64,000 bases of DNA from a gamma proteobacterium symbiont of Ctena orbiculata (lineage in GTDB: Bacteria; Pseudomonadota; Gammaproteobacteria; Chromatiales; Chromatiaceae). The position numbers were made by a program, and so were the translations under genes. The notes beneath the pieces were generated by a model that saw only the letters and a program-made list of their open reading frames with translations, was not told where the DNA came from and searched no databases. The stretch is taken from the NCBI GenBank assembly GCA_003058495.1, contig QBVC01000026.1, forward strand, positions 62,001-126,000. Direction: 5' to 3'. Shown here in pieces: positions 22,004 to 51,084 of the stretch (its first letter is position 1; each line of letters begins with the position of its first letter).

Positions 22004-22621
22004 ATGATTGTCTATCTCCATGGACTCAACAGCGCGGGCAGTTCCGGCAAGGCCGCGGTGTTGCGGGCGTCGCTTCCGGAACTGCAGATCATCAGCCCCA
22101 CCTATCCCGCCCATACCGCGGCGAAGGCGGTGGAGACACTCACGGACAGCCTGCAGCCGCTGCTTGAAGAGGATCGCCACGTGGACGAGCCCCGCCTCAT
22201 GGTGGGGAGTTCCATGGGGGGGTTCTATGGCGCCTGGCTGGCGCAGCGTTTGCGCTTCCAGCATCTGGTGATGATCAATCCCGCCCTGGTGCCCTGGGAG
22301 CTTTTGCTGCAGGTGGCGGGCTGGCAGTACAACCAGGCCCAGGACGAGCGCTACTACCTATCGCGGGAGATGGTTGCCGCGACCCGGGAATTTGCCATCG
22401 AGCCGAGTCCGGACGGAGTGCCCACGACTCTGCTGCTCGACAAGGGGGATGAGCTGATCGACTACCGCATCGCCGAAGGGATCTATCAGGGGATCGGTGA
22501 TATCCACTGCTTCGAGGGGGGGAGCCACACCTTCGACCACATGGAGGAGGCGGTGGGGATCATTGGCGGGATTCACCAGAGGCTGGTTGAGGAAATCCAG
22601 TCCGCAAATGAACGCGAATAG
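22004..22621 (+). CDS. YqiA/YcfP-type alpha/beta-hydrolase (esterase)
   Basis: 205 residues. MIVYLHGLNSAG is the oxyanion-hole section; MVGSSMGGFYGAW has the nucleophile Ser in GxSxGG; LLLDKGDELIDY supplies the acid and EGGSHTFDHM the His. This is the pattern of the YqiA family of small esterases. The last six codons and stop (S-A-N-E-R-E-stop) come from the end of a composite repeat that begins at 22599, so the natural C-terminus may have been replaced. Convergent with topA. Confidence 0.88.
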   Translation: MIVYLHGLNSAGSSGKAAVLRASLPELQIISPTYPAHTAAKAVETLTDSLQPLLEEDRHVDEPRLMVGSSMGGFYGAWLAQRLRFQHLVMINPALVPWELLLQVAGWQYNQAQDERYYLSREMVAATREFAIEPSPDGVPTTLLLDKGDELIDYRIAEGIYQGIGDIHCFEGGSHTFDHMEEAVGIIGGIHQRLVEEIQSANERE

Positions 22622-22902
22622 ATGCAAATGTTGTTTTTCTCGGCATGAACTATAAGGAGTCACGGTGGCTGGCGTAGCTCTTTCTCCGCCGCCCCAACAG
22701 CACGTCCATGTGCTGACGGGGCTATCGCGGCATCCATGCCGCTGCAACGAAAGAGCTACGCCAGCCACCTCCGTTCTGCAAGTTGTGGCTTGCCGCACCG
22801 ATACACAACCATCAGAGTGGCAAGGTGAATCCGGTTGGTTTAGTGATGCGGCAAGCCACACCCTACGATAAATTTGCGTTTATTCGCGTTAATTCGCGGA
22901 CT
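22599..22902. repeat. Composite inverted-repeat element, copy 1
   Basis: 304 bp. Terminal inverted repeats at 22599-22629 (starts AGTCCGCAAATGAACG) and 22871-22902. Inside: a 106-bp unit at 22664-22769 with arms GGTGGCTGGCGTAGC and complement, and an inverted pair of GTGGCTTGCCGCACC units at 22785-22800 and 22845-22867. No open frame of note. Lies between the 3' ends of the esterase gene and topA. Confidence 0.88.
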
Positions 22903-22912
22903 GAATTCCGAG

Positions 22913-25192
22913 TCAGCCATCGACCACAGGCTCGCTGAAGGAGCAATCCTTCTGCGGACAGACCTTCTCGGTGCCCTTGCGCTTGGTGGTCTTGATGGTC
23001 AGCACAGGCCAGCCGCAGTTGGGGCAGGGTTCGGCCACCGGCTCGTTCCATACCGCGTAGTCGCAATCCGGATAGGTGGAGCAGGAGTAGAAGATCTTGC
23101 CGCGGCGTGATTTCCGCTTCAACAGGGTCCCCTTGTGGCACTTGGGACAGCTGACGCCGGTATCCTCGGGTTTCTCCAGCGGTTCGATATATTTACATGT
23201 GGGATAGCTGGAGCAGCCGATGAACTTGCCGTAGCGGCCGCGCTTGATCACCAGTTCGGAACCGCACTCGGGGCAGTTGCGCCCCTCTACCACCTCCGGC
23301 TCCTCCTTTTCTGTCGTGTCGGCGTTCAGATCCCGGGTGTAGTCGCAGGTGGGGTAGTTGGTGCAGCCGATGAAGCGGCCGTGGCGTCCCAGGCGGATCG
23401 AGAGCTGTTCCCCGCACTTGGGGCAGGCCTCGTCCAGCGCCTCGTGGGTGACGTCGCTGCGCTTGACGTTCTCCTGGGTGTGGTCGATCCGATCCTTGAA
23501 CGGCCCCCAGAATTTACTCAGCAGGGGTATCCAATCCTCCTCGCCGCGGGATACCGCGTCGAGCTCATCCTCCAGATTGGCGGTGAAGTCGTAGTCAACG
23601 TAGCGGGTGAAATACTCGGTGAGGAATTTGTTCACCACCCGGCCCACATCGGTGGGTTGGAAGCGTTTCTTCTCCAGCACCACGTACTCCCGGTCCTGCA
23701 GGGTGGAGATGATCGAGGCGTAGGTCGAGGGGCGGCCGATGCCGTACTCCTCGAGGGCCTTCACCAGGCTCGCCTCGCTGTAGCGGGGCGGCGGCTCGGT
23801 GAAGTGCTGCTCGGGGCGGATCGCCTTCAGCGGCAGGGTTTCACCCTCGGTGAGCGGCGGCAGCAGCTTCTCGTCGCTGTCGCTCTTGGCGCCGTCGTCG
23901 AGGCCCTCCTGGTAGACCGCGATGAAGCCGGGCTTGGCGATCACCGAGCCGTTGGCGCGGAACAGGTTGCCCTCGCCACAGGCGAGGTCGGCGGCAACCG
24001 TGTGGATGGTGGCGTGGATCATCTGGCAGGCGACCGATCTTTTCCAGATCAGCTCATACAGCTTGGCCTGGTCCTTGGTCAGGCTGTCCCTGATCTCATC
24101 GGGGATGCGCATCACCGAGGTGGGCCTGATCGCCTCGTGGGCCTCCTGGGCATTCTTCGACTTGGTCTTGAAGTGACGCACCGTGGGGGGAACCTGGTCG
24201 GCGCCGTAGCGCTTGCTGATGAGATCGCGGATCTCATCCAGCGCCTCGTCCGCCAGGTGGACCGAGTCGGTTCGCATGTAGGTGATCAGGCCGACGGTGC
24301 CCTGGCCCACATCGACGCCTTCGTAGAGCTGCTGTGCGGTGCGCATGGTGCGCTGGGCGGTAAAGCCGAGCTTGCGTGCCGCCTCCTGTTGCAGGGTGGA
24401 GGTGGTGAAGGGCGGCGCCGGATTGCGCTTGCGCTGCTTCTTCTCGACCTTGACTACCTGAAGGCCCTCTTTTCCGGCCTCCAGCAGCAGTTTTTCTGCC
24501 GCCTTGGCGCCAGTCTCGTCGGTGATGCTGAATTTTTCGAGCTTTTCGCCCTGGTAGTGGGTGAGTCTTGCCGAGAAACGCTGTTTCTCTTTCTCCGTGT
24601 CGGCCTCTATGGTCCAGAACTCTTCCGCCTTGAAGGCCTCGATCTCCTCCTCCCGTTCCACGATCATACGCAGCGCGGGGCTCTGTACCCGTCCCGCGGA
24701 GAGGCCTCTGCGAACCTTTTTCCACAGCAGGGGCGAGAGGTTGAAGCCCACCAGATAGTCCAGGGCCCGGCGCGCCTGCTGCGCATCGACCAGGTCGTGG
24801 GAGAGGTCGCGGGGGTTGGCGATGGCGTCGTTGACCGCCTTTTTGGTGATCTCGTTGAAGACCACGCGATAGACCTGCTTGTCCTTGAGCTTGCCCCGCT
24901 CCCGCAGCAGTTCGGAGAGATGCCAGGAGATGGCCTCGCCTTCGCGGTCGGGGTCGGTCGCCAGGTAGAGGGCCTCCGATTTTTTCAATGCCTTGGTGAT
25001 TGCCTGGACATGACGATCGTTACGCTCGATGACCTGGTACTTCATGGCGAAACCCTGGTCCGGATCAACCGCGCCCTCCTTGGGGACCAGGTCCCTTACA
25101 TGGCCATAGGAGGCCATTACCTCGAAGTTTCCGCCGAGATATTTCTTGATTGTTTTTGCCTTTGCGGGCGATTCAACAATAACCAGATTCAT
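22913..25192 (-). CDS. topA: DNA topoisomerase I
   Basis: 759 residues. TOPRIM domain at the N-terminus (VIVESPAKAKTI; Asp80, Asp82 and Glu84 in DPDREGEAI). Active-site Tyr305 in LITYMRTDS. Four C-terminal zinc-ribbon modules follow: CPKCGEQL...CTNYPTC, CPECGSEL...CSSYPTC, CPKCHKGT...CSTYPDC and CPNCGWP...CPQKDC; E. coli TopA has three such ribbons plus two degenerate ones. It relaxes negative supercoils. Last gene of the leftward run LysM-dprA-smg-topA, 87 bp after smg. Confidence 0.97.
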   Translation of the reverse strand: MNLVIVESPAKAKTIKKYLGGNFEVMASYGHVRDLVPKEGAVDPDQGFAMKYQVIERNDRHVQAITKALKKSEALYLATDPDREGEAISWHLSELLRERGKLKDKQVYRVVFNEITKKAVNDAIANPRDLSHDLVDAQQARRALDYLVGFNLSPLLWKKVRRGLSAGRVQSPALRMIVEREEEIEAFKAEEFWTIEADTEKEKQRFSARLTHYQGEKLEKFSITDETGAKAAEKLLLEAGKEGLQVVKVEKKQRKRNPAPPFTTSTLQQEAARKLGFTAQRTMRTAQQLYEGVDVGQGTVGLITYMRTDSVHLADEALDEIRDLISKRYGADQVPPTVRHFKTKSKNAQEAHEAIRPTSVMRIPDEIRDSLTKDQAKLYELIWKRSVACQMIHATIHTVAADLACGEGNLFRANGSVIAKPGFIAVYQEGLDDGAKSDSDEKLLPPLTEGETLPLKAIRPEQHFTEPPPRYSEASLVKALEEYGIGRPSTYASIISTLQDREYVVLEKKRFQPTDVGRVVNKFLTEYFTRYVDYDFTANLEDELDAVSRGEEDWIPLLSKFWGPFKDRIDHTQENVKRSDVTHEALDEACPKCGEQLSIRLGRHGRFIGCTNYPTCDYTRDLNADTTEKEEPEVVEGRNCPECGSELVIKRGRYGKFIGCSSYPTCKYIEPLEKPEDTGVSCPKCHKGTLLKRKSRRGKIFYSCSTYPDCDYAVWNEPVAEPCPNCGWPVLTIKTTKRKGTEKVCPQKDCSFSEPVVDG

Positions 25193-25279
25193 CGATGTAG
25201 GGTCGTTCCAGGGGGAAAATGCGGGACAGTGAACCCTCCCGCAAAAAAGAAATCAAGAATTTTTTGTTGTCAGTGTTGG

Positions 25280-25756
25280 CTAATGCAGGAAAACAGGGAT
25301 GTCGTTATAGACCATGTCCTCCATGCGCGCGAAGGCCGCTTCCTGTCCAGGCTGATTCATCAATACCAGGAGAATAATCCATTTCAACTCCTCTTCTGTA
25401 ATGATTGCGGTGTCGAGGGCCAGGGCGCGTTCGATCACCAGCTCACGGGCATTCGCCGTGAGGATGTCATTCTGCTCCAGAAACATCAGCAGGCCGCGGG
25501 AGTCCACATCCAGCCTTGCCGTTTCCTCCTCGGTGAAGATGCGCAGCGAGTGAGTGGGATCGCTTTCGCCGTGCGGGGACTGATCGCTGTTGGCTAGCTC
25601 GTCCAACCAATCAAAGGCCTTGTTGATCTCTCCAGAGGGAAAGCCTGCCTGAATCAACTCATCACGCAGTTCGTGTTGATCCGAGGGTGGGGCCTGTTCG
25701 CCGTCCATGTAGTTTTCGTAGAGGTAGATCAGGATATCGACCACGTTTTCGTTCAT
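25280..25756 (-). CDS. smg: Smg family protein (DUF494)
   Basis: 158 residues. N-terminus MNENVVDILIYLYENYMDGE is the family hallmark, followed by a helix-rich section (LIQAGFPSGEINKAFDWLDEL) and a C-terminal part with EELKWIILLVLMNQPGQE. Its biochemical role is not established; it is almost always located between dprA and topA in gammaproteobacteria, as here. Its start overlaps the dprA stop by four bases. Confidence 0.93.
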   Translation of the reverse strand: MNENVVDILIYLYENYMDGEQAPPSDQHELRDELIQAGFPSGEINKAFDWLDELANSDQSPHGESDPTHSLRIFTEEETARLDVDSRGLLMFLEQNDILTANARELVIERALALDTAIITEEELKWIILLVLMNQPGQEAAFARMEDMVYNDIPVFLH

Positions 25757-26925
25757 ATGCTCTCTCTCCCGCTGGGGCGGGATGTCAATCTGTCAATGCG
25801 GCAGTAGTAGCCGCCGGGAGCCGATGATACATGACCTTCGAGCTCGAGCAAAAGCAGCATGGACGAAACTGCCTCCGCGGTCAAACCCGTACGCGCAATT
25901 AATTCGTCAACTGAAACCGGATCATAGCCAAGGGCCTGGTCCAGCAGCTGATAATCGGCGTCCGCCTCGAAGTCCAATGAGGTCTGCCGGGCCGCCCCGG
26001 GCTCTCCCCGTGTCTCCAGGGTTGCGAACAGGGAACCCAATTCCTCGATGATGTCCTGGGCCGATTCGACCAGTTTGGCGCCCTGCCTGATCAGTGCATG
26101 GCAGCCGTGGGCCTGGGGATTGTGGATCGAGCCGGGAATGGCAAAGACCTCGCGGCCCTGTTCGCTCGACAGCCTGGCGGTGATCAGCGATCCGCTCTGC
26201 AGCGTGGCCTCGACCACCAGGGCGCCGAGGGAGAGGCCGCTGATGATGCGGTTGCGGCGGGGGAAATTCTCCGCTTTTGCCGGAATGCCGGGCGGAAACT
26301 CGGTGATCAGCAGTGCCTGTTCGGCAATCCTGTGGGCAAGATCCTTGTGAACCGCGGGATAGATCCGGTCCGGTCCCGTGCCCATCACCGCAATGGTCGA
26401 GCCGCCCCTGAGCGCACCCTCGTGGGCGGCGCCATCGATGCCCTGGGCCAGGCCGCTGGTGATGCAGAAACCGGCGGCGGCCAGGCAGCGGGCGAATTCG
26501 CGGGCGTTGTCGAGGCCGGTGGTGGTCGGATTGCGGCTGCCGACGATGGCCAGCTGAGGCTGCAGCAGCAGCGCCTCGTCGCCCATCAGATAGAGCAGGG
26601 GAGGCGGATCGTCGATCTGCCGCAACAGCGGGGGATAGGCCTCGTCACCCAGGGTGAGCAGCTGATGATCGGGCTGCGCCAGCCAGGCCAGTGAGGATTC
26701 GATCCGGCCGCGATCCTGTCGCAGCAGGTTGTCTATCGCCCCGTGCGGTATGCCGAGTTCGGCGAGCTCCCTGCGGCTGGCGCCGAGGATCGCCTGGGGA
26801 TCGCCGTAGTGGTCCAGCAGGCGCTGGAAGTAGCGGCTGCCGATACCCGAGGCGAGGCCGACCAGCAGCCAGGCCTCGGTGTCGGAAGGTGGGGTGCCGG
26901 ATATGCGATCCATGCTATTCGGCAT
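25753..26925 (-). CDS. dprA: DNA-processing protein DprA
   Basis: 390 residues. Rossmann-like core with LAIVGSRNPTTTGLDNAREF, ITSGLAQGIDGAAHEGAL, GSTIAVMGTGPDRIYPAVHK, FPPGIPAKAENFPRRNRIIS and EATLQSGSLITARL. Additional N-terminal helix-hairpin region and a C-terminal winged-helix module (LDQALGYDPVSVDELIARTG). It loads RecA on incoming single-stranded DNA in natural transformation. Coupled to smg downstream and only 11 bp from the LysM gene upstream. Confidence 0.95.
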   Translation of the reverse strand: MPNSMDRISGTPPSDTEAWLLVGLASGIGSRYFQRLLDHYGDPQAILGASRRELAELGIPHGAIDNLLRQDRGRIESSLAWLAQPDHQLLTLGDEAYPPLLRQIDDPPPLLYLMGDEALLLQPQLAIVGSRNPTTTGLDNAREFARCLAAAGFCITSGLAQGIDGAAHEGALRGGSTIAVMGTGPDRIYPAVHKDLAHRIAEQALLITEFPPGIPAKAENFPRRNRIISGLSLGALVVEATLQSGSLITARLSSEQGREVFAIPGSIHNPQAHGCHALIRQGAKLVESAQDIIEELGSLFATLETRGEPGAARQTSLDFEADADYQLLDQALGYDPVSVDELIARTGLTAEAVSSMLLLLELEGHVSSAPGGYYCRIDRLTSRPSGRESI

Positions 26926-26936
26926 GTGCGGAGTTT

Positions 26937-27971
26937 CTAGCTTCCCGGTGTGCGTACCCAGTCCAGTACGTGGAGCGGTTTGGTGGCATCCATGACCAGG
27001 GCGAAACTGACCTTCTCGAAGGTGCGGAAGACCATCAGGTGGCCGGCCTCTTCCAGGGGCAGTCTGACCGTTTCACCACGGCCCTTGACGATATCGCGAA
27101 TATCCTCGCCCCCCTGCAGGATGCGCAATACATGGCCCGCCTCCAGGCCCACGTTGCTGCCCTTGTTGAGCACCACCACATGATACTGGCCGATCTGGGT
27201 CACCCCGTTGAGAACGGAGATGATGCGGCCCTCGATGGCGCTCTCCGGCACCCTGGGCTGAAAGTCGATCAGCGGCTCCTCCTCCATGGCCTTGATCAGT
27301 CGATCGCCGATGAGCGCCTCGATCTCCGACGAGGTAAGCAGCAGCTTGGCGGGATCGCCGGTCCTTTTCAGCTCCGAGTTGCCGACATAGAGGGCTTCGT
27401 AGCCGAGAATCTCGCCGGTATCAGGATCTTTATAGGGCTTTTCAGGTCTAACAACCGCGTACTGAATCGGCCGCTCCTCCATGATGCTGCGTGCGTAGTA
27501 GCTGATACCCGCGCCGCCGACGATGTGGTCATCCAGGAAATGGACGATATAGGGGGCCTTCTCCAACTCATTCTCGTCGACCACGTAGGGACGGGTGAGG
27601 AAGGGAGCGATGGCATCGATCGGAATGGTCGGGATGGCCTGGTCCAGGGGGGTGGCCCTTACACGTGGGGAAAGCCTGTCCTTTCGGCTCAGCTGCAGCA
27701 TCGGTCGACCGTCGCGGTAGGTGAGCTCGATCACGTCACCGGGAAAGATCAGATGGGGGTTTTCAATCTGCGGATTGACATACCAGACCTCCGGCCAGAG
27801 CCAGGGATCGCGCAGAAACATCGATGAGATGTCCCACAGGGTATCGCCCTTGACCACGGTGTAGCGTTCCGGGTGCGAAGGGTTGAGCGCGACATGCTCG
27901 GTAGCAAGTACGCAAAAGGAGAGCAGCAGGCCGCTGATGACTCCGATGAGTTTGTTGTTAAGATATGACAT
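26937..27971 (-). CDS. LysM domain exported protein
   Basis: 344 residues. A signal peptide (NNKLIGVISGLLLSFCVLA) is followed by one LysM motif (YTVVKGDTLWDISSMFLRD ... NPHLIFPGDVIELTY), which binds peptidoglycan. The remaining 230 residues form a conserved domain of unknown role (PYVVDENELEKAPYIVHFLD, VLNKGSNVGLEAGHVLRI). AAGGGA precedes the ATG. This gene is found next to dprA and def in Pseudomonas and relatives as well, so it is part of the conserved local order. Divergent from def across a 185-bp AT-rich promoter region. Confidence 0.9.
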   Translation of the reverse strand: MSYLNNKLIGVISGLLLSFCVLATEHVALNPSHPERYTVVKGDTLWDISSMFLRDPWLWPEVWYVNPQIENPHLIFPGDVIELTYRDGRPMLQLSRKDRLSPRVRATPLDQAIPTIPIDAIAPFLTRPYVVDENELEKAPYIVHFLDDHIVGGAGISYYARSIMEERPIQYAVVRPEKPYKDPDTGEILGYEALYVGNSELKRTGDPAKLLLTSSEIEALIGDRLIKAMEEEPLIDFQPRVPESAIEGRIISVLNGVTQIGQYHVVVLNKGSNVGLEAGHVLRILQGGEDIRDIVKGRGETVRLPLEEAGHLMVFRTFEKVSFALVMDATKPLHVLDWVRTPGS

Positions 27972-28156
27972 AACTATTCCCTTGGGTGCGTAGCGGAAAT
28001 TCTAGCGATCTACTGCGGAGATTCTCCCATGTGTTGTGTTCTATAATCGATGACGATTTTAATGAAAAAACAGTCTGTGACACTACACTAGTTTCCAGTA
28101 TGATCATAATGTTAGCGCAATTTCTTGCATTTGTACTATAGATTTTGGAAAAACAG

Positions 28157-35164: not shown

Positions 35165-35251
35165 AGTCCGCAAATGAACGCGAATCAACGCAATTTTTTT
35201 CTTCAACGTTTCTGAATTACTGCCATCGTGTAGGGTGCTGTTTGCCGCACC
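35165..35251. repeat. Left half of a composite inverted-repeat element
   Basis: 35165-35195 starts AGTCCGCAAATGAACGCG and continues to CAACGCAA; 35230-35251 is a GTAGGGTGCTG...GCCGCACC hairpin. There is no right end nearby; the matching right end is at 36626-36653, beyond the ATPase gene. The copy starts seven bases after the ntrX stop. Confidence 0.8.
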
Positions 35252-35302: not shown

Positions 35303-36469
35303 TTAAAGGCTCAGTCTTTGCATAAGCATTGACAAAGAAATCACACTCACATCATTACCCAAAGGAAATTCATCGTCTCCACCGTAAACAACGTATTTGT
35401 GCGTCGCACCTACATCATTACAGGTTTGGCTATAGTGTTTGCCGACTTTGGGAGCAATGCCGTACTTGATCTCTATGGCCCAGATTTCAGCTGACGGCAT
35501 CTTGATAACCAGATCGATCTCTGCTCCGGCGGCTGTACGGTAAAAGTAGCTTTCGGCACGACTGGGCAGTACAGAAAGGATATTTTCAACGGCAAAGCCT
35601 TCCCAGCTCTTTCCCAAAACCGGATTCGACAACAATGTATCTTGGCTGTTGATACCCAACAAACGATGCAGAATGCCGCTGTCGCGTACGTAGTAACGGG
35701 GCGATTTCACCACCCGCTTCTTGACGTTGGCATGCCAGGGCTCAAGGCGTCTGAGCAGCAGGAGATCGGTCAGAATATCGATGTAGTGACTGACCGTCTT
35801 GGCATCAACTTCCAGGTTTGATGCCAGCTTGGAATAGTTTATGGTCTCGCCTTGTAAATGTGCCAGCATCGTCCACAAACGGCGCAACCTTACCGCGGGA
35901 ACGCGAAAGCCCAGTTGAGGGGTGTCACGCTCAAGATAGGTGCGAATCAGATTTTCAAGCCAGTCCAAAGCCGCATCTTCATCGGATGCAAGGTAGCTGT
36001 CCGGAAAACCTCCCCGCAGCCAAAGGGTTTGTCGATCCTCTGGGTTATCATCAATCTCCATCAGGTTCAGGCCGCCCATCTCGATATAACTGATCCGACC
36101 GGTCAGGCTTTCTGAAGATTGACGCATCAATTCCATCGATGCCGATCCAAGCAACAAAAACCGACCTGCCCTATGATCCTGCTCCCGGCCTTTATCTATC
36201 AAGCCGCGTAGTACGGGGAACAAGTTCGGGATTCGCTGTATTTCATCAAGGATAACCAGCTTACCGGCATGAGCGCTCAAAAAACTGGTGGGGTCGCTGA
36301 GCTTCAGTAAATCCTCGGGGGCTTCCAGATCGAGGTATATTGAGTCGATCTCTTTTGCAATGATTTTTGCAAGTGTCGTCTTGCCAACCTGGCGTGCGCC
36401 AAGCAACACCACAGCGGGGACTCGTGCGATCGTTGCTTGTAGCCTCTGTGTGAGTTGGCGTTTCAGCAT
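35303..36469 (-). CDS. AAA ATPase with DUF4143 nuclease-like domain
   Basis: 388 residues. Walker A LLGARQVGKTTLAKII and Walker B GKLVILDEIQRIPNLFPVLR at the N-terminus, sensor region RFLLLGSASMELMRQS, a winged-helix section (NYSKLASNLEVDAKTVSHYI) and a C-terminal PD-(D/E)xK-like region (AGAEIDLVIKMP, IWAIEIKYG). This is the common DUF4143 AAA family, spread by horizontal transfer and without a firm role; links to toxin-antitoxin-like or mobile functions have been proposed. It lies between the two halves of a repeat element, and a 10-bp inverted repeat straddles its start codon. Confidence 0.9.
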   Translation of the reverse strand: MLKRQLTQRLQATIARVPAVVLLGARQVGKTTLAKIIAKEIDSIYLDLEAPEDLLKLSDPTSFLSAHAGKLVILDEIQRIPNLFPVLRGLIDKGREQDHRAGRFLLLGSASMELMRQSSESLTGRISYIEMGGLNLMEIDDNPEDRQTLWLRGGFPDSYLASDEDAALDWLENLIRTYLERDTPQLGFRVPAVRLRRLWTMLAHLQGETINYSKLASNLEVDAKTVSHYIDILTDLLLLRRLEPWHANVKKRVVKSPRYYVRDSGILHRLLGINSQDTLLSNPVLGKSWEGFAVENILSVLPSRAESYFYRTAAGAEIDLVIKMPSAEIWAIEIKYGIAPKVGKHYSQTCNDVGATHKYVVYGGDDEFPLGNDVSVISLSMLMQRLSL

Positions 36470-36541: not shown

Positions 36542-36653
36542 GCCACGCCAGCCACCTCCGTTCTGCCGGTTTTATACGACAGCCTGTAGGGTGCGGCTTG
36601 CCGCACCCTACAGGTTATAAAACACTTGCGTTCATTCGCGTTTGTTTGCGGAC
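36542..36653. repeat. Right half of a composite inverted-repeat element
   Basis: Starts with a partial GGTGGCTGGCGTAGC arm (GCCACGCCAGCCACC at 36542-36556) and its usual flank TCCGTTCTGC, then a perfect GTAGGGTGCGG/CCGCACCCTAC palindrome at 36586-36611, then the terminal repeat ending CGTTTGTTTGCGGAC at 36653. It ends seven bases before the stop codon of the cytochrome-like gene. Confidence 0.8.
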
Positions 36654-36660
36654 ATTTTAT

Positions 36661-38380: not shown

Positions 38381-40210
38381 TTAGATCGCGGGATCATCGA
38401 ATACCCAGACCACATTGTTCTCGTGGTTGCCGGTATCCTCGCCGATGAGCACGCGACCATCGTCCATGATCAGCAGGTTGTCGGGGTTGGAGATGTTGTT
38501 GATGCTGCATTCGTTGACTGAACGGTCGGCGTAGTAGGGTCCGCCGACAATGGCCGGAACCATGGTCGTTACATCGACCTCGCCCTGGGCATTGCGCATC
38601 AGCTTCATGCGGTAGACAACGCCGCACTTGCCGCTGGCGCCGTTGAGCTGGATGTCGCCTTCGCCGTCGCTCATGGTGGCGTCGAAGCTGGACATGGCCA
38701 TGTACATGTAGGCCTGTTCACCGTCGGCGGCACCGCCGTTCCACCAGGCTGAAGCCAGGCCGTAGTTGATGTTCACGCCTTCCATCTTGCGGAACTCGCC
38801 GGTGGCGCCCAGGGCGACAGCCGCCTTGCGGCTCTCGAGGAAGGCAACACGGTCATCGCTGAAGGGATTGGCGTCGACAGTGGCGTCTTCGTCACAGCTC
38901 AGGTCGGTGCCGGTCTTGGACTCGGCCCAGTCACAGACCTGCTCGTCGGTGATGTAGTTGGCGTCGGCAAAGCTGCCGTCGAAGGAGGCGATTGCCGCTT
39001 CGATGTCCGTTTCGCTCATGCTGGCAAGCTCGACCCACTCGATACCGAGGGCGGCCTCCGCGGGATCGTCAACGCTGGCGGCCTGGGTGACCTGCGCGGC
39101 ATACAGGGTGCCTGCGCTCATGTCACCGGCCACATCGGCGACGAACTTGAAGAAGACCACACCGGTGCCGTCGTCACTGAGGAAGACAGTGCGCTGGTCG
39201 GGCATGACGACCGAATTCTCGTGCGAGAAGCGGCCCATGGTCTCCAGCTTGTTGACCGTGACGTTGGCGACCGCTGCATCGGCGGCATTGCCAAGCTCGA
39301 CAATGTAGCCGTAGCGGTAGGGATTCGGCCAGTCGCCGCTGCCATCGGTGGGATAGCCGAAATAGGTGGCCAGGGATTGCGGGTTGCTGAAGTACTCGTA
39401 GTCCGGGTTGAACCAATCCGCGGTGTCATCGAAATAGAGCTCTTCAGATGAGAGCGGGGTGTCCCAGGGGCTGACGGTACCGAAGCAGTTGACCCAGGTG
39501 CCGCCGACGCTGGAGAAGTCGATCATGCCTTCCTGGACGATGGTGGCGTAGCCGGCGTCGGTGAGGCCGCTGACATGGATGCGGCTCATGCTGCCCGGGC
39601 GATCCTCCCAGTTGCTGTAGACGTAATAGCCAGTGTCACCGTCGGAGATGACGCCGTTGAAGTCAGGATCGTTGGAGCTCTTGATCAGGGTGGTGCCGTC
39701 GAGGGCGATGATGTCACCCATGGCGTTACCGTCATCGAGGGCGTCGCCCTGCTGGGTCAGTACCTGGTAGGAACCGACGGCGGTCATGACCACCTCTTTC
39801 TCCGCAGTGGTGACCGGCAGGTCGAGGGCGCCGAAGTTCTCAGCCAGCGCCGAGAAGTCCTGACCGACGATGACGCCCACGGTGCCTTTGTCGAATATCT
39901 TGCCGGCGCTGTCCGCGGTCGTATTGCTGCTGCTGGGATGCTGGACATTGAGGAACAGGGTGTTGTCGCTGTTCAGGTACATGCCGGTGAATTCGGCACC
40001 CAGGGGGGCGGTCGCGAGACGCTTCAGGCCTAAGGGGACATAATTGGTAATGCCGTCCACACCGTCGACACCGTCTTGACCGTCGACACCATCGACACCG
40101 TCGTCACCGTCATCACCGCTGCATCCCGCTAACAGCAGGGATGAACAAAAAATGGCTGCCGCTATGGAAGCAGGCAGGGTTTGTAGACGAAATGATTTCT
40201 TTTTCAACAT
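38381..40210 (-). CDS. PhoX-like (DUF839) lipoprotein with collagen-like linker
   Basis: 609 residues from the ATG at 40208-40210 (GGGGAG upstream); an in-frame extension to 40429 is unlikely to be used. The signal peptide ends in a lipobox (SSLLLAGCSG), then a Gly-x-y repeat of the type GVDGQDGVDG, then a large domain that starts GLKRLATAPLGAEFTGMYLN and includes FLNVQHPSSSNTTAD, EDTGNHENNVVWVFD and other features of the PhoX/DUF839 family. PhoX enzymes are calcium/iron-dependent phosphatases; whether the metal ligands are all kept cannot be shown here. A phosphatase or related phosphoester role on the outer surface is plausible. Upstream of the cytochrome gene on the same strand. Confidence 0.8.
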   Translation of the reverse strand: MLKKKSFRLQTLPASIAAAIFCSSLLLAGCSGDDGDDGVDGVDGQDGVDGVDGITNYVPLGLKRLATAPLGAEFTGMYLNSDNTLFLNVQHPSSSNTTADSAGKIFDKGTVGVIVGQDFSALAENFGALDLPVTTAEKEVVMTAVGSYQVLTQQGDALDDGNAMGDIIALDGTTLIKSSNDPDFNGVISDGDTGYYVYSNWEDRPGSMSRIHVSGLTDAGYATIVQEGMIDFSSVGGTWVNCFGTVSPWDTPLSSEELYFDDTADWFNPDYEYFSNPQSLATYFGYPTDGSGDWPNPYRYGYIVELGNAADAAVANVTVNKLETMGRFSHENSVVMPDQRTVFLSDDGTGVVFFKFVADVAGDMSAGTLYAAQVTQAASVDDPAEAALGIEWVELASMSETDIEAAIASFDGSFADANYITDEQVCDWAESKTGTDLSCDEDATVDANPFSDDRVAFLESRKAAVALGATGEFRKMEGVNINYGLASAWWNGGAADGEQAYMYMAMSSFDATMSDGEGDIQLNGASGKCGVVYRMKLMRNAQGEVDVTTMVPAIVGGPYYADRSVNECSINNISNPDNLLIMDDGRVLIGEDTGNHENNVVWVFDDPAI

Positions 40211-41867: not shown

Positions 41868-41883
41868 ATCAGGAATATCGACT

Positions 41884-43335: not shown

Positions 43336-43359
43336 TTATTTATTTATAAAAAAGAATTC

Positions 43360-43640
43360 ACCGCAAATGAACGCGAATAAACGCAAATATTATTTTTAAG
43401 GACACGCTGATTAACCCGTCATTCCGGCGAAGGCCGGAATCTATCTGTTTGATATTACTGGATCCCGGCATGCGCCGGGATGACGAATAACTAATTAATC
43501 AGATCTTCCCTAATGTGTAGGGTGCGGGATGCCGCACCGAAAGCTATGCTCACTAAAGTACCAAAGTGGTTCATTGGTGCGGCATCCCGCACTCTACACG
43601 TTAATTGACATTTGCGTTTATTCGCGTTCATTTGCGGACT
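43360..43640. repeat. Composite inverted-repeat element, copy 2
   Basis: 281 bp. Terminal repeats at 43360-43388 (ACCGCAAATGAACGCG...) and 43610-43640 (ends CGTTCATTTGCGGACT). Nested inside: a GTCATTCCGGC/GCCGGGATGAC hairpin at 43418-43484 and an inverted pair of GTAGGGTGCGG units at 43515-43538 and 43576-43599. Sits between the 3' ends of trkH and the YqaA-like gene. Confidence 0.88.
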
Positions 43641-45413: not shown

Positions 45414-45964
45414 CAGTCGCCGCCTTCCTCGAGCCGTTTGAGTTCGTCGAGAATGCCCAGGACCATCGATTCGGTATTGCTGTCCATGCGTTTGCACAGC
45501 AGATCGGGATCCCGTTCACCGTCGATCAGGGGGCGTATCACCGCAGCCAGGCGGGCCATGGGACCGCCAACCCGGCTCATCTGATCCGCCATCTCGGCAA
45601 TGATCTGCAGCGCCTGGGCATTGCCGCTGCCGGCGGCATGGATCATTGAGGCGAGCCCGGGCGCGGCCAGGGCCGGATCGGGTCTCTGGTTGGGATCGGG
45701 CAGGGTGGCGGGGTCCTGCAGCCCGCGCAGAATCGCCTCGGCAATCACCTGGTCCTCCTCGTCGAGGCTGTTCAGCAATTCGATGTCGCGGCGGCCTTGG
45801 TCGAAGATCAATCGAATCACCGCAACCAGTTCATCCCAGCCATGGGCTTTCGCCATCGCCATGAGCTGCTCAAACTCGCTGTTGCGATCGGGATCGCTAC
45901 CGCTGACTACCACCTGATTGATGAAGGCGGCATGCACCGCAAGAATCTGTGCACGCTTGTCCAT
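45413..45964 (-). CDS. Conserved hypothetical cytoplasmic protein
   Basis: 183 residues, helical, soluble. Begins MDKRAQILAVHAAFINQVV and contains LMAMAKAHGWDELVAVIRLI, DEEDQVIAEAILRGLQDP and MADQMSRVGGPMARLAAVI. No named family recognised. It touches its neighbours on both sides (start overlaps the stop of the HEAT gene, stop overlaps the DUF423 start), so the whole run is probably one coupled operon. Confidence 0.7.
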   Translation of the reverse strand: MDKRAQILAVHAAFINQVVVSGSDPDRNSEFEQLMAMAKAHGWDELVAVIRLIFDQGRRDIELLNSLDEEDQVIAEAILRGLQDPATLPDPNQRPDPALAAPGLASMIHAAGSGNAQALQIIAEMADQMSRVGGPMARLAAVIRPLIDGERDPDLLCKRMDSNTESMVLGILDELKRLEEGGD

Positions 45965-46614
45965 CAGCGCTCCTCCCCGTGAAGCAGACCTAGCGATTCG
46001 CCGGCGATCTCTCTGACATCGGGGTGGCTGTCGTCGATCATGCCCCGCAGGGCATCGGCGGCGGCGCTGGAACGGGTCAGTCCCAGGTAGTGCGCGGCGT
46101 CGGCGCGCAGCGCGGGATCAGCGGATTGCGCCAGACGGAGCAGGTCCTCGAGCGCCGACTGCCACAGCGGTGTGCCCTGCAGCTCCTCGGCCACCACGCC
46201 GATGCCGATGCGCACGGCGATGGGGGTCTCGGGGAGTTCAAGCAGGCTCAGCAGATCGTGGATGGTCTCTGGATCTTGCTGCAACCTGGCGATGACCCGT
46301 TGTGGGCGCTGGGTCTCCAGGAGGTGGCTGAGGTAGCTGGCATTGCCCGCTTCCTCGCCAGCGAGTTCGGTCCAATGTTCGAGTTCCCCGGGGGAGAGGA
46401 TCCCCTCCAGCTCAAACCCGCCGATCCGTGTCCAGGGCACGCTTCTGACGCCAAGGCGCTGGGCGGCTTCCGGGTGTTCGACGATATTGATTGCCTCGAG
46501 ACGGCCGATTTTCCCCTGTTTCAGGAGATTGTTCAGACCCTGCAGTACCACGGGACAGTGTGCACAGCCGGTGGCCAGCAGTAACAGGGCGTCTGGGGCT
46601 TCGCTTTTACTCAT
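45964..46614 (-). CDS. Thioredoxin-fold/HEAT-repeat fusion protein
   Basis: 216 residues. The N-terminal 85 residues form a thioredoxin-like domain with a CxxC motif (LLATGCAHCPVVLQGLNNLL, then RSVPWTRIGGFELEG with the cis-Pro region). The rest (about residues 100-216) consists of HEAT-like helical repeats (IAVRIGIGVVAEELQ, PALRADAAHYLGLT, DVREIAGESLGLL). No signal peptide. It could act as a redox sensor or scaffold. First gene of the run that leads to YqaA, and divergent from aprB across 542 bp. Confidence 0.8.
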   Translation of the reverse strand: MSKSEAPDALLLLATGCAHCPVVLQGLNNLLKQGKIGRLEAINIVEHPEAAQRLGVRSVPWTRIGGFELEGILSPGELEHWTELAGEEAGNASYLSHLLETQRPQRVIARLQQDPETIHDLLSLLELPETPIAVRIGIGVVAEELQGTPLWQSALEDLLRLAQSADPALRADAAHYLGLTRSSAAADALRGMIDDSHPDVREIAGESLGLLHGEER

Positions 46615-47156
46615 GTGCGCAAGTCGAAATGCGTCACTTTAGCGGAATGGGGCCGTTGTGCAAGCCTTGGTCCGGATCCGGAGGGTCCCGTTCAGCCCCA
46701 AAAATAGCGGCAGAGGCGGAAAGTGCATATCTCCCTTGGGATAGACCCCTCTATTCAGGAGGGGTGGAGGGGAGAGTGGATAAAATGACCTTATTCACTA
46801 TATTGGTATTTTTTTAAGTATAAATAGAGGCTTAGTAAACCAACAAAAACAGTCGGTTTTTCAAGGCGCTAAGTCAATAAGCGTATTTTATGCGCCCTCA
46901 TAAAAAGACTGTTTGGCTAAAGGGATTGTAAGGCATTAATGTTTGTCGCCCTGATTCCAGCTTGCGCGCGTGCGTGCCAGGGAGTGCCTAGCGATGCGGC
47001 CTCGCTGAATCGGGTTCGAATCAAGGTTCGGACGCCGTCGGGCACGGACCGGGATAGAGAATAATGAAAGACACCGGATGATACCGGTTGTGTTTCAAAT
47101 GTCGCGGCATCGCGCGGCGACTGAATCACTGCAGTGAAACCTAGGAGATAAACACC
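46615..47156. other. Intergenic region upstream of aprBA
   Basis: 542 bp between two divergent genes. The middle (about 46790-46920) is AT-rich. There is a 7-bp stem at 46745-46765 (ACCCCTC/GAGGGGT). No credible gene is present; open frames lack start signals. Promoters for aprB and the opposite gene must lie here. AGGAG eight bases before the aprB start is the only clear signal. Confidence 0.55.
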
Positions 47157-47630
47157 ATGCCTACATTTGTGCGTACTGAGAAGTGCGATGGCTGTAAAGG
47201 CCAGGACAGGACAGCTTGCATGTATATCTGTCCTCATGACCTGATGAAGCTGGATAAAGACGGCTCTGAGACCGGTCATGCCATGAAGTCGTTCAACCAA
47301 GAGCCTGAGCAGTGCTGGGAGTGCTACTCCTGCATCAAGATCTGCCCGCAGCAGGCCATCGAAGCGCGTCCCTACGCCGATATCGTACCTCTGGGTGCAT
47401 CTGTACAGCCTCTGCGCGGTACCGACTCCATCATGTGGACCATCAAGTTCCGGAACGGCACCATGAAGCGCTTCAAGTTTCCGATCCGTACCACCCCTGA
47501 GGGTTCCATCGATCCCTACGGTGGCAAGCCCGCCGCTGATATCGCGAAGATCGGTGAGCCCGGTTTCTTCAATCACAATGAGCAGAACGGCTACCGCGCC
47601 GGTGATGCCAGCGAGCTGATCCGCAAATAA
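47157..47630 (+). CDS. aprB: Adenylylsulfate reductase, beta (iron-sulfur) subunit
   Basis: 157 residues. Two [4Fe-4S] clusters: CDGCKGQDRTACMYICPHD at residues 10-28 and CWECYSCIKICPQQAIEA at 53-70. The C-terminal tail (MWTIKFRNGTMKRFKFPI ...) wraps around AprA in known structures. Electron-transfer subunit of the enzyme that interconverts APS with sulfite plus AMP; in an oxidiser it runs towards APS. Strong AGGAG signal and biased codon use fit high expression. 48 bp before aprA. Confidence 0.97.
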   Translation: MPTFVRTEKCDGCKGQDRTACMYICPHDLMKLDKDGSETGHAMKSFNQEPEQCWECYSCIKICPQQAIEARPYADIVPLGASVQPLRGTDSIMWTIKFRNGTMKRFKFPIRTTPEGSIDPYGGKPAADIAKIGEPGFFNHNEQNGYRAGDASELIRK

Positions 47631-47678
47631 GCGGTTTCAGACAGATTTAGAAACTAATCATATTTTGAGGAATAGAAA

Positions 47679-49664
47679 ATGGCTGAATTCGGAAATCCGG
47701 AAGTCGTCCAAGAAGAGGTAGACATCCTCCTGATCGGCGGTGGCATGGCTTGTAGTGGTGCCGCTTATGAGATCGGACCCTGGGTGCAGGCTGCCGGTGG
47801 CGACATCAAAGTTAAGCTGGTCGACAAGGCCGCTATGGATCGGTCCGGTGCTGTGGCACAGGGCCTCTCCGCTATCAACACCTACATCGGTTCGGAGCAG
47901 GATCCCGCCGATTACGCACGCATGGTCTCCAACGACCTGATGGGTATCACCCGCGACGACCTGGCCTACGACCTGGGCCGTCACGTCGATGAATCCGTCC
48001 ACCTGTTCGAAGAGTGGGGTCTGCCGATCTGGAAGACCGACGAGAACGGTGAGCGTCACGACGGCTCCAAGGGCATGACCCCGCTGAAGGACGGCGGCAA
48101 GCCCGTACGCTCCGGTAAGTGGCAGATCATGATCAACGGTGAGTCCTACAAGTGGATCGTCGCCGAGGCCGCGAAGAAGGCGCTGGGCATGGATAACATC
48201 CAGGAGCGTATCTTCATCGTCAAGCTGGTCAACGACAAGAACGACAGCAACCGTATCGCCGGTGCCGTTGGTTTCTCCGTGCGTGAGCACAAGCTCTATG
48301 TCTTCAAGGCAAAGGCCATCCTGTTGGCCGCCGGTGGTTGTGTAAACATCTTCCGTCCCCGCTCCGTGGGTGAGGGTCAGGGCCGTGCCTGGTACCCGGT
48401 ATGGAACGCCGGTTCCACCTACGCCATGGCTGCAGAGGCCGGTGCTGAGCTGACCATGATGGAAAACCGCTTCGTACCCACCCGTTTCAAAGACGGTTAC
48501 GGTCCTGTCGGTGCCTGGTTCCTGCTCTTCAAATCGAAGGCCACCAACGCCTTCGGCGAGGTCTACATGGACCGCAACAAGGAGATGCTGGACGACTATC
48601 CTCCCTATGGCCAGGCTGCGGTTCCCGCATCCTGCCTGCGTAACCACCTGATGCTCAAAGAGATGAAGGAAGGCCGCGGTCCCATCTGGATGGACACCGT
48701 CACCGCCCTTGCCAACCTGCGTGAGACCCTGTCTCCCCGTGAGGTCAAGCATCTGGAAGCGGAAGCCTGGGAAGACTTCCTGGATATGTGTATCGGCCAG
48801 TGCGGCATCTGGGCCGGTGAGAACATCGAGCCTGAGAAGAAGAACTCAGAGCTGATGCCCACCGAACCCTACCTGTTGGGCTCTCACTCCGGTTGCTGCG
48901 GCATCTGGACCTCCGGTCCCGATGATGTCGGCGCGCCTACCGATGAGACCGAGGCCGGCGTTCCGGATCACCTGCCCAAGGGCTGGAACTGGGGCTACCG
49001 TGGCATGACCACCGTCTCCGGTCTGTTCACCGCCGGTGACGGCGTGGGCGCTTCCGGACACAAGTTCTCTTCCGGTTCCCATGCCGAAGGCCGTATGGCC
49101 GCCAAGGCGATGGTCAAATACGTCATGGACAACAAGGACCTCAGCCCCGAGCTGGATACCGATGTTGATTCCCTGATCGAAGAGATCTACCGTCCGGTCC
49201 GCAACTACCTTGAGCACAAGGACTACAGCACCGCGATCGATGTGAATCCCAACTACATCACCCCGCGCATGCTGCAGTTCCGTCTGCAGAAGGTCATGGA
49301 TGAGTACGTTGCCGGTGTTGCCACCTACTACACCACCAACGAGCACATGCTGGACCTGGCTGAGCAGAAGCTGGAGATGCTGAAGGAAGATGCGCTGAAG
49401 ATGCGCGCCAAAGACCTCCACGAGCTGCTGCGTGCCTGGGAGAACTACCACCGCATCCTCACCGCTGAAGCCCACATGAAACACATTCAGTTCCGTCAGG
49501 AGTCCCGTTATCCCGGTTTCTACTACCGCATGGATAAGAACTTCGTCGACGAAGAGAACTGGAAGTGCTTCGTGAACTCCGTCTACGATAAAGAGACCAA
49601 GACCTACAAGTGCTTCAAGCGGGCACACGTAGATATCGTAGATAAGGCTAAGCTGTTCAAGTAA
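47679..49664 (+). CDS. aprA: Adenylylsulfate reductase, alpha (FAD) subunit
   Basis: 661 residues. FAD-binding N-terminus (VDILLIGGGMACSGAAYEI), substrate region with WGLPIWKTDENGERHDGSKG, and sections such as MMENRFVPTRFKDGYGPVGAWFLL that are near-invariant in AprA. Length matches. GAGGAATAG precedes the ATG. The gene pair has a strong terminator downstream; the membrane subunit AprM found beside aprBA in some sulfur oxidisers is not present. AprA is a phylogenetic marker and could place the organism. Confidence 0.98.
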   Translation: MAEFGNPEVVQEEVDILLIGGGMACSGAAYEIGPWVQAAGGDIKVKLVDKAAMDRSGAVAQGLSAINTYIGSEQDPADYARMVSNDLMGITRDDLAYDLGRHVDESVHLFEEWGLPIWKTDENGERHDGSKGMTPLKDGGKPVRSGKWQIMINGESYKWIVAEAAKKALGMDNIQERIFIVKLVNDKNDSNRIAGAVGFSVREHKLYVFKAKAILLAAGGCVNIFRPRSVGEGQGRAWYPVWNAGSTYAMAAEAGAELTMMENRFVPTRFKDGYGPVGAWFLLFKSKATNAFGEVYMDRNKEMLDDYPPYGQAAVPASCLRNHLMLKEMKEGRGPIWMDTVTALANLRETLSPREVKHLEAEAWEDFLDMCIGQCGIWAGENIEPEKKNSELMPTEPYLLGSHSGCCGIWTSGPDDVGAPTDETEAGVPDHLPKGWNWGYRGMTTVSGLFTAGDGVGASGHKFSSGSHAEGRMAAKAMVKYVMDNKDLSPELDTDVDSLIEEIYRPVRNYLEHKDYSTAIDVNPNYITPRMLQFRLQKVMDEYVAGVATYYTTNEHMLDLAEQKLEMLKEDALKMRAKDLHELLRAWENYHRILTAEAHMKHIQFRQESRYPGFYYRMDKNFVDEENWKCFVNSVYDKETKTYKCFKRAHVDIVDKAKLFK

Positions 49665-49691
49665 TCCTTGACCGCCTAGTGACTTAGGAAG

Positions 49692-49724
49692 GTCCGGGTA
49701 CCGCAAGGTGCCCGGACTTTTCCG
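49692..49724 (+). terminator. Rho-independent terminator after aprBA
   Basis: GTCCGGGTACC at 49692-49702 pairs with GGTGCCCGGAC at 49707-49717 around a GCAA tetraloop, followed by TTTTCCGTCTTT. Confidence 0.92.
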
Positions 49725-49844
49725 TCTTTAAAGCATGCCGTTTGTGCGGTTTTTAAATGAACACGGGCGTATGGCTATACTCTATATGCTGTGCCCATTT
49801 GCAAATTGTTAACCACAGGCCGATCCCTATATCGGAGACAGACC

Positions 49845-50735
49845 ATGAGCGAAAAATTCGATATTCCCTTCAAGAGCAGTTTCGTCCCCTCGGTGCTCGA
49901 GCCGGGCGCCAGGATCAAGTTCAACTGCCACAAGGGGATCTCCTGTTTCAACGCCTGCTGTAAACATGCCGACATCCAGCTGACGCCCTACGACATCCTG
50001 CGCCTGAAGGATAACCTGGGCGTCAGCGTCACCGACTTTCTGAAGAACCATACCGTCCCCTTTGAGATGGACAAGGATGGACTGCCCGGGGTGAAGCTGC
50101 GTACCGACAACGAGGGCGCCTGCCTGTTTGTCGACGAGGAGGGCTGCAGCGTCTACAAGGACCGTCCCACGGCCTGCCGCTACTACCCCATCGGCCACAT
50201 GGCGATGCGCGAGGCGGGGGCCAGCGACGACGAGGCGCGCTATTTCCTGATCCAGGAGGATCACTGCAAGGGACACGAAGAGGAGCGGGAGATCAGCGTG
50301 GACGACTACCGCAAGGAGCAGGAGGTCGAGGCCTACGATCAGATCAACCGGGAATGGCTGCAGCTGATGCTGAAGAAGAAATCGGCCGGCCCGACCATCG
50401 GCCGCCCCTCGGATACCAGCCTGCAGTTCTTTTTCATGTGCTCCTATGATACCGATCGCCTGCGCCGCTTCGTCCTGAGCGACTCCTTCAAGGCCTCATA
50501 TGATATGGATGACTCCTTTTACGAGACCATGGAAAAAGAGGATCTCGCACTGATGCAGTTCGGCGTCCGGCTGCTGAAACAGGTGCTGTTCGGCGATGTC
50601 ACCATTCCGGTCAAGGAGAATGCCGCGGAGCAACGTGTAGAGGAGCGCAAAGAGATCCTGGAGATGCGCAGAAAGGCGGAGGCGGAGCTCCATCAGCAGA
50701 AGCAGGAGCAGCAGATGAAGGATGCCATGTCCTGA
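49845..50735 (+). CDS. YkgJ family cysteine cluster protein
   Basis: 296 residues from the ATG at 49845 (GGAGACAGACC upstream; longer frame unlikely). Cysteines CHKGISCFNACCKH near the N-terminus and CLFVDEEGCSVYKDRPTACR further on make the YkgJ zinc/iron-chelating module (CxxxCC...C...CxxYxxRPxxCR). A long charged C-terminal tail follows. The role of the family is not known; metal-centre handling is suspected. It lies just after aprBA but the terminator between them suggests separate transcription. Confidence 0.85.
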   Translation: MSEKFDIPFKSSFVPSVLEPGARIKFNCHKGISCFNACCKHADIQLTPYDILRLKDNLGVSVTDFLKNHTVPFEMDKDGLPGVKLRTDNEGACLFVDEEGCSVYKDRPTACRYYPIGHMAMREAGASDDEARYFLIQEDHCKGHEEEREISVDDYRKEQEVEAYDQINREWLQLMLKKKSAGPTIGRPSDTSLQFFFMCSYDTDRLRRFVLSDSFKASYDMDDSFYETMEKEDLALMQFGVRLLKQVLFGDVTIPVKENAAEQRVEERKEILEMRRKAEAELHQQKQEQQMKDAMS

Positions 50736-50750
50736 TTTGTTTAAGAATCG

Positions 50751-51084
50751 AGTCCGCAAATGAACGCCAATAAACGCAAATCATTTTGTTTTCGTTCCCA
50801 CGCTTCTGTGTGGGAATAAGTCAAGGATTGGTGTTGCGTTGATTGATTGGTGGGGTAGTGTCCCACCCCGCAGCTATCGTATCAAAATAGCAGACCGGAG
50901 GTGGCTGGCGTAGCGCTTTCGCTGCAGCGGCAGGGATGCCGCGGTAGCCCCGTCAGAACAAGGACGTGCTGTTGGGGCGGCGGAGAAAGCGCTACGCCAG
51001 CCACCGTGACTTTCCCTGGTTCGTACCAAGAACACCGGAATGAGAAAAACGGCCTTTGCGATTATTGGCGTTCATTTGCGGACT
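50751..51084. repeat. Composite inverted-repeat element, copy 3
   Basis: 334 bp. Terminal repeats at 50751-50781 and 51055-51084. Inside: a GTTCCCACGC/GTGTGGGAA hairpin at 50794-50816, a GGTGGGG/CCCCACC-type hairpin at 50849-50870, and the 106-bp GGTGGCTGGCGTAGC unit at 50900-51005, whose middle is in the opposite orientation to copy 1. Between the convergent YkgJ-like and pterin dehydratase genes. Confidence 0.88.

Follow-up and report, generated by a model that had tools for sequence, protein, structure and literature searches.

Several kinds of short repeats in bacterial intergenic DNA invite comparison with the elements treated here, as far as the accessible parts of the respective papers go. 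Doublets of repetitive extragenic palindromic (REP) sequences, the REPINs, consist of two inverted units around a highly diverse spacer, occur alongside singlets and in many intergenic copies, and are accompanied by one helper gene (PMC8049555). REPs carrying a GTAG or CGTC tag lie near 3′ ends, at convergent and unidirectional junctions and at few divergent ones, and the GTAG-15 dimers of Anabaena, which stand inside long palindromes, are a precedent for a composite (PMC3733652). Miniature inverted-repeat transposable elements (MITEs) such as NEMIS, ERIC and Nezha measure 70–300 bp and have inverted ends and no coding capacity (PMC3733652), and the paired tandem-repeat "global regulator binding sites" of Geobacter metallireducens were read as possible sites of the IHF/HU type (PMC2700814). 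The present analysis concerns a family of composite inverted-repeat elements in a stretch of 64,000 nucleotides (the window; G000:C50:62001-126000) from the genome of a gamma proteobacterium symbiont of Ctena orbiculata (G000; 4.53 Mb in 51 contigs). Among named records, the best match of its topA is in a gammaproteobacterial MAG, at 72%. We consider it rather probable that the elements of the window are non-autonomous members of a two-part system, composed of inverted pairs of phased arms and a nuclease of the GxxExxY family.

Three complete elements were found, as had been predicted originally from the letters of the window, with inverted ends of about 30 bp and differing interiors:

22599–22902, no strand: element 1, A-type, complete; arms 22599–22629 and 22872–22902; between an esterase-like gene and topA, convergent
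43358–43640, no strand: element 2, A-type, complete; arms 43358–43388 and 43610–43640; between trkH and a VTT-domain gene, convergent
50751–51084, no strand: element 3, A-type, complete; arms 50751–50781 and 51054–51084; between a CxxCxxCC gene and a phhB-like gene, convergent

The arms are 31 bp long and the interiors are unlike as wholes. The predicted coordinates hold for the first and third element, while the second begins at 43358 and not at 43360, and the outermost bases of its left arm are TCA, not AGT. A 28-bp core of the arm, searched with up to three mismatches, gave seven matches in the window and none in 100 shuffles, and the matches pair as inverted repeats (22599/22902, 43358/43640, 50751/51084). 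No gene was found inside the three elements by the gene caller, a codon-usage script written for this analysis, which agrees with the expectation that they encode no transposase. The A-type consensus, AGTCCGCAAATGAACGCNAATRAACGCAAAT (31 bp), is an array of heptamers CGCNAAT, one per 10 bp, with positions 18 and 22 being the most variable (70 arms of 35 pairs); arms of a B subtype read about AAGCCGCAAATGRACGCNAATCACCGCAAAT and are represented in the window at 5902–5995. The element family is real and multicopy, as a genome search with its end had been expected to reveal: a 14-bp arm core with at most one mismatch has 161 matches in its own genome and the reversed control has none. Three CRCNRAT units with a 10-bp period were found in 48 of 398 sampled Pseudomonadota genomes, and the 18 genomes besides G000 with at least five such matches all belong to family f40, in which the reversed-pattern control is much lower, but not zero (12 against 44 matches in G081, 6 against 19 in G073). 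For closer study the window and 51 further stretches of G000 were used (607 kb of the genome), which were chosen for containing arms, as were the stretches from G007 (a species of the same genus; its contig C27 was chosen by synteny), G035 and G047.

The partner of the arms is suggested by an element in the same genome that does contain a gene. At C6:90712-91180, between carA and carB, a 469-bp A-type element has as its sole open reading frame (ORF) the only GxxExxY gene of the genome (PF13366/TIGR04256, PD-(D/E)XK superfamily), whose product clearly exceeds the family cut-offs (140.2 bits against 22 for PF13366, 140.9 against 35 for TIGR04256). The neighboring genes were identified by Pfam in G000, and so was the carB side in G007, G035 and G054, whose carA was recognized by eye. 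Having same-type arms around a nuclease gene, this element is, judged from its sequence, a candidate autonomous relative with the same ends. All 15 aligned proteins retain the residues of catalytic type (E, D, (E/D)xK, Q and Y), with D68 and K80 invariant; no relative in the PDB was found by sequence at E ≤ 0.1.

The enclosure is not peculiar to this one gene. Arm-like units pointing inward flank PF13366 genes on both sides in 15 of 29 matches, or 13 of the 22 full-length ones, and the same count for the genes in the stretches of four arm-bearing genomes gave 1/476, 1/286, 0/179 and 1/133. Of the three genes enclosed in these stretches, one is GxxExxY itself, one codes for a methionyl-tRNA synthetase and the third is an unknown 98-aa ORF. 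Loci with a Y1_Tnp gene showed no such enclosure (0/30). A test for inverted repeats that is blind to the arm letters was passed by 25 of 37 GxxExxY loci, compared with 3 of 424 control genes and 2 of 30 Y1_Tnp loci. These 37 loci comprise 27 of the 29 matches (the partial matches L410 and L418 were left out), two loci from IMG/VR and eight from plasmids; control genes served as the null because the loci share arm families, which makes a cross-locus null unusable. Two plasmid loci passed, those of Bacteroides finegoldii and Bernardetia, and those of Fusobacteria, Treponema, Persicobacter, Gemmatirosa, Sphingomonas and Prevotella failed. Scans of viruses with two further queries yielded no relatives.

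The letters of the arms also vary with the subtype of the enclosed protein. At all 17 scorable loci with a VGxY-type protein the units are CRCNRAT, and at all 10 with a GYR-type protein they are CRCNRAG (p = 1.2e-7 across the 27 loci, this and the other p values being too small because the loci share descent). Ten of the 37 loci had no clear type or fewer than three units and are left out of this table, and the split into VGxY and GYR was defined after the proteins had been inspected. Around the GYR subtype (L390, L396, L399, L403, L404, L407) the units end in AAG or GAG with a period of about 8–10 bp and form a parallel arm family. A protein tree of 25 of the 37 loci, for which the arm labels were assigned by the analyst and long branches call for caution at L407, L419 and L400, places the two arm classes on either side of a single branch (support 100/99; none of 500 shuffles gave so low a value). 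Within the AT class of this tree four CACAGAT-armed proteins cluster (96/91). The A-armed carA-carB proteins of G000 and G035, which belongs to another genus, form one cluster (96/93) and the B-armed ones of G007 and G054 another (90/86), so that the nucleases group across genus borders even though the CarB proteins of G000 and G007 share 98% identity and those of the other pairs 88–92%. In each case the arm type of the resident nuclease is the commoner one in its genome, the ratio of A to B arms being 68/15 in G000 and 31/43 in G007 (p = 2e-7 between these two), and 32/5 in G035.

The arm pairs could also be ordinary MITEs of a DDE or HUH transposase, in which the GxxExxY gene has settled as a frequent passenger. 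Their size and inverted ends fit this idea, and other genes are found between arms as well, namely the DUF4143 gene of the window, three genes in L066 and two in L172. A passenger, however, should not covary with the arm letters, and no target-site duplication was found in 55 AA and 28 BB pairs with flanks of 2–10 bp; of nine AA tests for matching flanks the best reached p = 0.015 at k = 6, with no consistent excess. Moreover, a Pfam scan of the ORFs listed between consecutive arms at distances of 300–5000 bp, made only in the stretches sampled from four genomes, revealed no transposase gene, two small or unknown ORFs being without a match. Arms do not adjoin any of 30 Y1_Tnp genes (0/30 within 200 bp, nine genomes), and at two of these loci phased units stand at other places of a region of about 3 kb. 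We therefore regard ordinary MITEs as unlikely. A Y1 transposase of the RAYT (REP-associated tyrosine transposase) kind was likewise rejected as the helper: next to the lack of arms at the 30 Y1 genes, the own genome has a single partial Y1_Tnp match (profile positions 35–84 of 121), without phased units in its 3-kb locus.

Arms and nuclease genes occur together in the genomes that were compared. In 20 chosen genomes PF13366 was present in 13 of 14 with arms and in none of six without, a contrast that is confounded by family, eight of the 14 being from f40 and all six arm-free ones from f1. Within f1 only, it was present in five of six arm-bearing genomes and in none of the six arm-free genomes, which had been picked for zero arm matches and include none from f40. 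This confounding, together with the shared descent of the loci, weighs against a two-part system of arms and nuclease, and so do several further observations. G047 has many arms and no PF13366 match (its genome is 81% complete), and 12 of the 37 GxxExxY loci, including six of the eight plasmid loci, which come from other groups, have no inverted repeat that passes the cut-off. The structure predicted from two sequences is of poor confidence (mean pLDDT, the predicted local distance difference test score, 42.7). No interior resembling a deleted GxxExxY gene was found, and this origin of the interiors was rejected. The lack of target-site duplications counts here too, and no clean pair of an empty and a filled site was seen among the aligned junctions. 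Lastly, the arms at 15 orthologous sites of G000 and G007 are no more alike (identity 0.82 left, 0.78 right) than random A arms (0.86). This result fits arms that are kept near a code or are replaced, and is by itself no proof of inheritance. Weighing these points, we still favor a system of arm pairs and GxxExxY nuclease.

The positions of the arms were analyzed relative to the called genes. The sample from G000 contains 130 arms, which form 48 pairs in (+,−) order and 34 singlets, with no (−,+) pair within 700 bp; the G007 stretches contain 44 pairs and two (−,+) cases. In the window, the three elements and their smaller B-type relative indeed all lie between convergent genes. It had been claimed from this that all complete copies are at convergent gene ends, and this claim fails because many pairs stand between tandem genes: of the 48 pairs, 22 are convergent, 23 tandem and three divergent. 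Comparing the occupied junctions (22 convergent, 22 tandem and three divergent) with arm-free ones, at gaps of at least 30 bp, convergent junctions are enriched over tandem (odds ratio (OR) 4.7, p = 1.6e-5) and over divergent ones (OR 13.3, p = 2e-6) in G000, and are enriched in G007 as well (OR 5.9, p = 5e-5). In G035 and G047, which are more distantly related, no such enrichment was seen with five (OR 0.95, p = 1) and three convergent junctions (OR 1.6, p = 0.68), respectively. Divergent junctions are occupied in 3/75 cases in G000, 3/47 in G007, 0/22 in G035 and 1/16 in G047; these rates are relative only, because the stretches were chosen for containing arms. In 19 of the 23 tandem pairs the 3′ end of the upstream gene is the closer one, and 15 of the 22 convergent pairs either overlap with the two stop codons or are at most 40 bp away from each. 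The elements thus have a preference for gene 3′ ends, which is not a rule; of the suggestion that they are tolerated only at gene ends, the nearness to 3′ ends and the scarcity of divergent cases stand, and the exclusiveness is lost to the roughly one half of pairs between tandem genes.

Such positions would also be expected if the arm pairs were 3′ elements serving the host, with the transcribed arms forming a long hairpin by which the transcripts from either of two convergent genes are ended or protected. The nearness to both stop codons speaks for this, and of 88 predicted folds 98% show the arms paired by at least 15 bp, which is bound to be so for inverted repeats. Over about 10 nt the outer flanks, read outward, are rich in T (0.36–0.43) and poor in G (0.08–0.11) compared with empty intergenic DNA (about 0.24 and 0.27), and at the variable positions 18 and 22 matches between the two arms of an element are more frequent than between shuffled arms (35 pairs). 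T tracts (at least four in eight) occur on both sides of 17 of 139 elements and on one side of 66, at a control rate of 0.12 per side. However, 56 of the 139 have no T tract on either side, and the flank bias is present in every context and about as strong upstream of tandem elements as downstream, that is, where termination is not needed. Canonical terminators are similarly frequent at occupied and empty convergent ends (0.22 and 0.17; shuffled 0.04 and 0.07), and it is the arm sequence which is kept, not pairing alone. The idea that T tracts are selected locally at tandem junctions was dropped, there being no clear difference. The suggestion of bidirectional terminators or insulators has the pairing and the flanks in its favor, and the contexts and the few two-sided T tracts against it; a terminator role is possible, with weak support, and may be a by-product, and a host function as the main explanation of the arms seems improbable to us.

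The phased heptamers might alternatively be sites of chromosome structure, bound by gyrase, HU/IHF or a nucleoid protein where convergent transcription builds up supercoils. BIMEs (bacterial interspersed mosaic elements) of E. coli are linked with gyrase, the AT- and GC-rich blocks of the arms are phased at 10 bp, and the arm pairs are enriched between convergent genes in two species. Yet convergent junctions are not enriched over tandem ones in G035 and G047, where numbers are small, and the arm letters track an accessory nuclease gene, which leaves this explanation very improbable.

Within the arms, the three complete elements of the window carry nested modules:

22664–22769, no strand: GGTGGCTGGCGTAGC hairpin module nested in element 1, absent from the G007 element
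22778–22868, no strand: GTAG-type REP pair nested in element 1, left tag degenerate, also in G007 (family per PMC3733652)
43417–43485, no strand: CGTC-tagged REP pair nested in element 2 (family per PMC3733652)
43517–43597, no strand: GTAG-tagged REP pair nested in element 2
50794–50816, no strand: GTTCCCACGC hairpin nested in element 3, also in G007
50849–50869, no strand: GGTGGGGTAGTGTCCCACCCC hairpin nested in element 3
50900–51005, no strand: GGTGGCTGGCGTAGC hairpin module nested in element 3

A GGTGGC hairpin module is common to elements 1 and 3, and GTAG-type REPs are common to elements 1 and 2. Two of the nested module types agree with the definition of GTAG/CGTC REPs, a tag with a short palindrome, often as inverted dimers (PMC3733652). 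Inside the 48 pairs of G000 the modules are denser than in other intergenic DNA, with 1.62 against 0.21 per kb for GTAG-type REPs, 1.62 against 0.07 for the GTTCCCACGC hairpin and 0.89 against 0.12 for CGTC-type REPs; the GGTGGCTGGCGTAGC module occurs five times inside the pairs and not at all elsewhere in the intergenic DNA. Overall, 81 of 132 interiors have no relative at E ≤ 1e-4, so the interiors differ while the arms stay recognizable. Interiors are more structured than shuffles (mean z −1.9, and −5.4 for those of at least 170 bp). A role of the interior hairpins in shortening the loop was rejected, as they hardly reduce the effective span (15.3 against 16.0). Two further nests were noted: inside a 750-bp arm pair at L090 4916–5665 a CCGGCGATCTTC hairpin module is present twice, together with GTTCCCACGC hairpins, so that the nest seems to be duplicated, and at G007:C7:96008-96347 (L095, L096) two inverted GGTGGC-type modules about 190 bp apart are perhaps a further composite.

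The orthologous junctions in G007 differ in their modules. The orthologue of element 1 has both arms and the REP pair and lacks the GGTGGC module, and that of element 3 has kept both arms and the GTTCCCACGC hairpin, with its other modules being different and its interior partly replaced. At the junction of element 2 no arms are present and about 950 bp of other DNA stand instead. These differences between G000 and G007 show that nested modules are gained and lost inside the arms, and that the composite is built up in this way. At some orthologous junctions one species has A arms and the other B arms. At least one arm was present in G007 at 23 of 25 compared G000 sites, which is not a rate, since for 57 of 82 no orthologous sequence was compared.

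The remaining arms of the window and the features that adjoin them are the following:

5902–5995, no strand: small B-type arm pair, at a convergent junction
6179–6206, minus strand: single weak arm adjoining the B-type pair
35165–35195, plus strand: left arm of a split element, also in G007
36624–36654, minus strand: right arm of the split element, partner of the left arm at 35165
35230–35251, plus strand: GTAG-type REP adjoining the left arm of the split element
36586–36611, no strand: GTAG-type REP adjoining the right arm of the split element
35303–36412, minus strand: AAA_14/DUF4143 ATPase gene between the halves of the split element, absent from the G007 junction

What had been taken for a left half at 35165 is an arm, as stated, with a right-hand partner at 36624–36654 on the far side of the DUF4143/AAA gene; the G007 junction has the left arm only. 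The best PADLOC matches of the enclosed gene are the PDC-S01 candidate defense models. A still wider enclosure was seen at L066 11243–13926, where arms 2.7 kb apart surround a VWA-domain gene, an unknown gene and a PspA-like gene; DNA of G007 aligns across these genes, but the alignment shows no arm on the side of position 11243. The left arm of element 1 supplies the final codons and the stop of the esterase-like gene at 22004–22621 (...SANERE, stop), and the G007 orthologue likewise terminates within an arm (...SANEHE, stop). A short array with 9-bp steps (CCGTCGACA-like) lies at 40053–40106 within the gene called at 38381–40210.

How a nuclease might act on such arms can be outlined. Each arm offers three to four heptamers (CGCNAAT here) in 10-bp steps on one face of the helix, with an unconserved interior between the arms. 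Because the heptamers are phased, a protein that binds one helix face in several copies is suggested, and the opposition of the two arrays suggests either that the ends are brought together or that the substrate is a hairpin or cruciform. The PD-(D/E)XK nuclease is the natural candidate for the binder because it covaries with the arms. It could bind both arms at their phased heptamers, or else a hairpin or cruciform into which the arms fold, and by nicking or cutting at the arms it could spread or repair arm pairs in trans, like a RAYT with its REPINs. The nuclease step could be cut-and-paste, single-strand transfer or break-induced conversion; we lean towards conversion because of the lack of duplications and the exchange of arm types between carA and carB. 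Copies would persist where they are least harmful, at gene 3′ ends, and would then gather REPs. Placement at 3′ ends is what selection against damage to promoters should produce, and REPs are known to be placed in this way, as described in the accessible part of PMC3733652. The view that the elements are non-autonomous and mobile agrees with their many copies, the nearly constant (+,−) order, the singlets, the patchy occurrence among relatives and the one copy with a nuclease gene inside it. No movement as such was observed. Beyond the window, we put at about even the chance that GxxExxY nucleases define an unrecognized mobile or homing-like class, in bacteria, in which a small PD-(D/E)XK protein and a pair of arms of helically phased 9–10-bp repeats are accompanied by large populations of derivatives that consist of arms alone and stand at the 3′ ends of genes. 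In such a class the code of the arms would evolve together with the protein subtype, and its reach would extend beyond Pseudomonadota (two Bacteroidota plasmids).

No published description of the full composite had been known when it was predicted, and none was found for the arm letters as a repeat in the open literature searched, which mostly excludes subscription papers, preprints and supplements, so that a description may exist. Nor were arms found described together with GxxExxY/PF13366 in the accessible parts of that literature, in which the domain is mentioned in passing (PMC8934634). The composite consists of small palindromes, partly known REPs, nested in arms for which no description was found. 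With MITEs the arm pairs have in common that they are short and multicopy, with inverted ends and mostly no coding capacity; unlike MITEs they show no target-site duplication, and most interiors are not common to copies (81/132, as above). The Geobacter metallireducens sites resemble them in being opposed arrays of short tandem repeats, multicopy and at variable distance, and differ in their units of 7–8 bp with other letters and, in the accessible parts of the paper, in having no link to a nuclease (PMC2700814). GTAG/CGTC REPs share the position bias, as far as the portion of their description at hand goes, and lend their tags to two nested module types, whereas the outer arms lack both tags and, by inspection of AGTCCGCAAATGAACGCNAATRAACGCAAAT, are not self-complementary, and the GGTGGC and GTTCCCACGC modules fall outside the assignments of these families. 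The closest resemblance in organization is to REPINs and RAYTs, since inverted doublets with a diverse spacer stand beside singlets here too (48 pairs and 34 singlets), with the differences that the arms are helically phased heptamer arrays instead of GTAG-tagged palindromes and that the candidate helper is a PD-(D/E)XK nuclease instead of a Y1/HUH transposase. The arms point to an uncharacterized, widespread nuclease family as their partner, a link which provides a testable partner and would explain the diversity of the arms as a recognition code. If true, the REPIN-RAYT way of life would have been invented a second time, independently and on a second enzyme fold.

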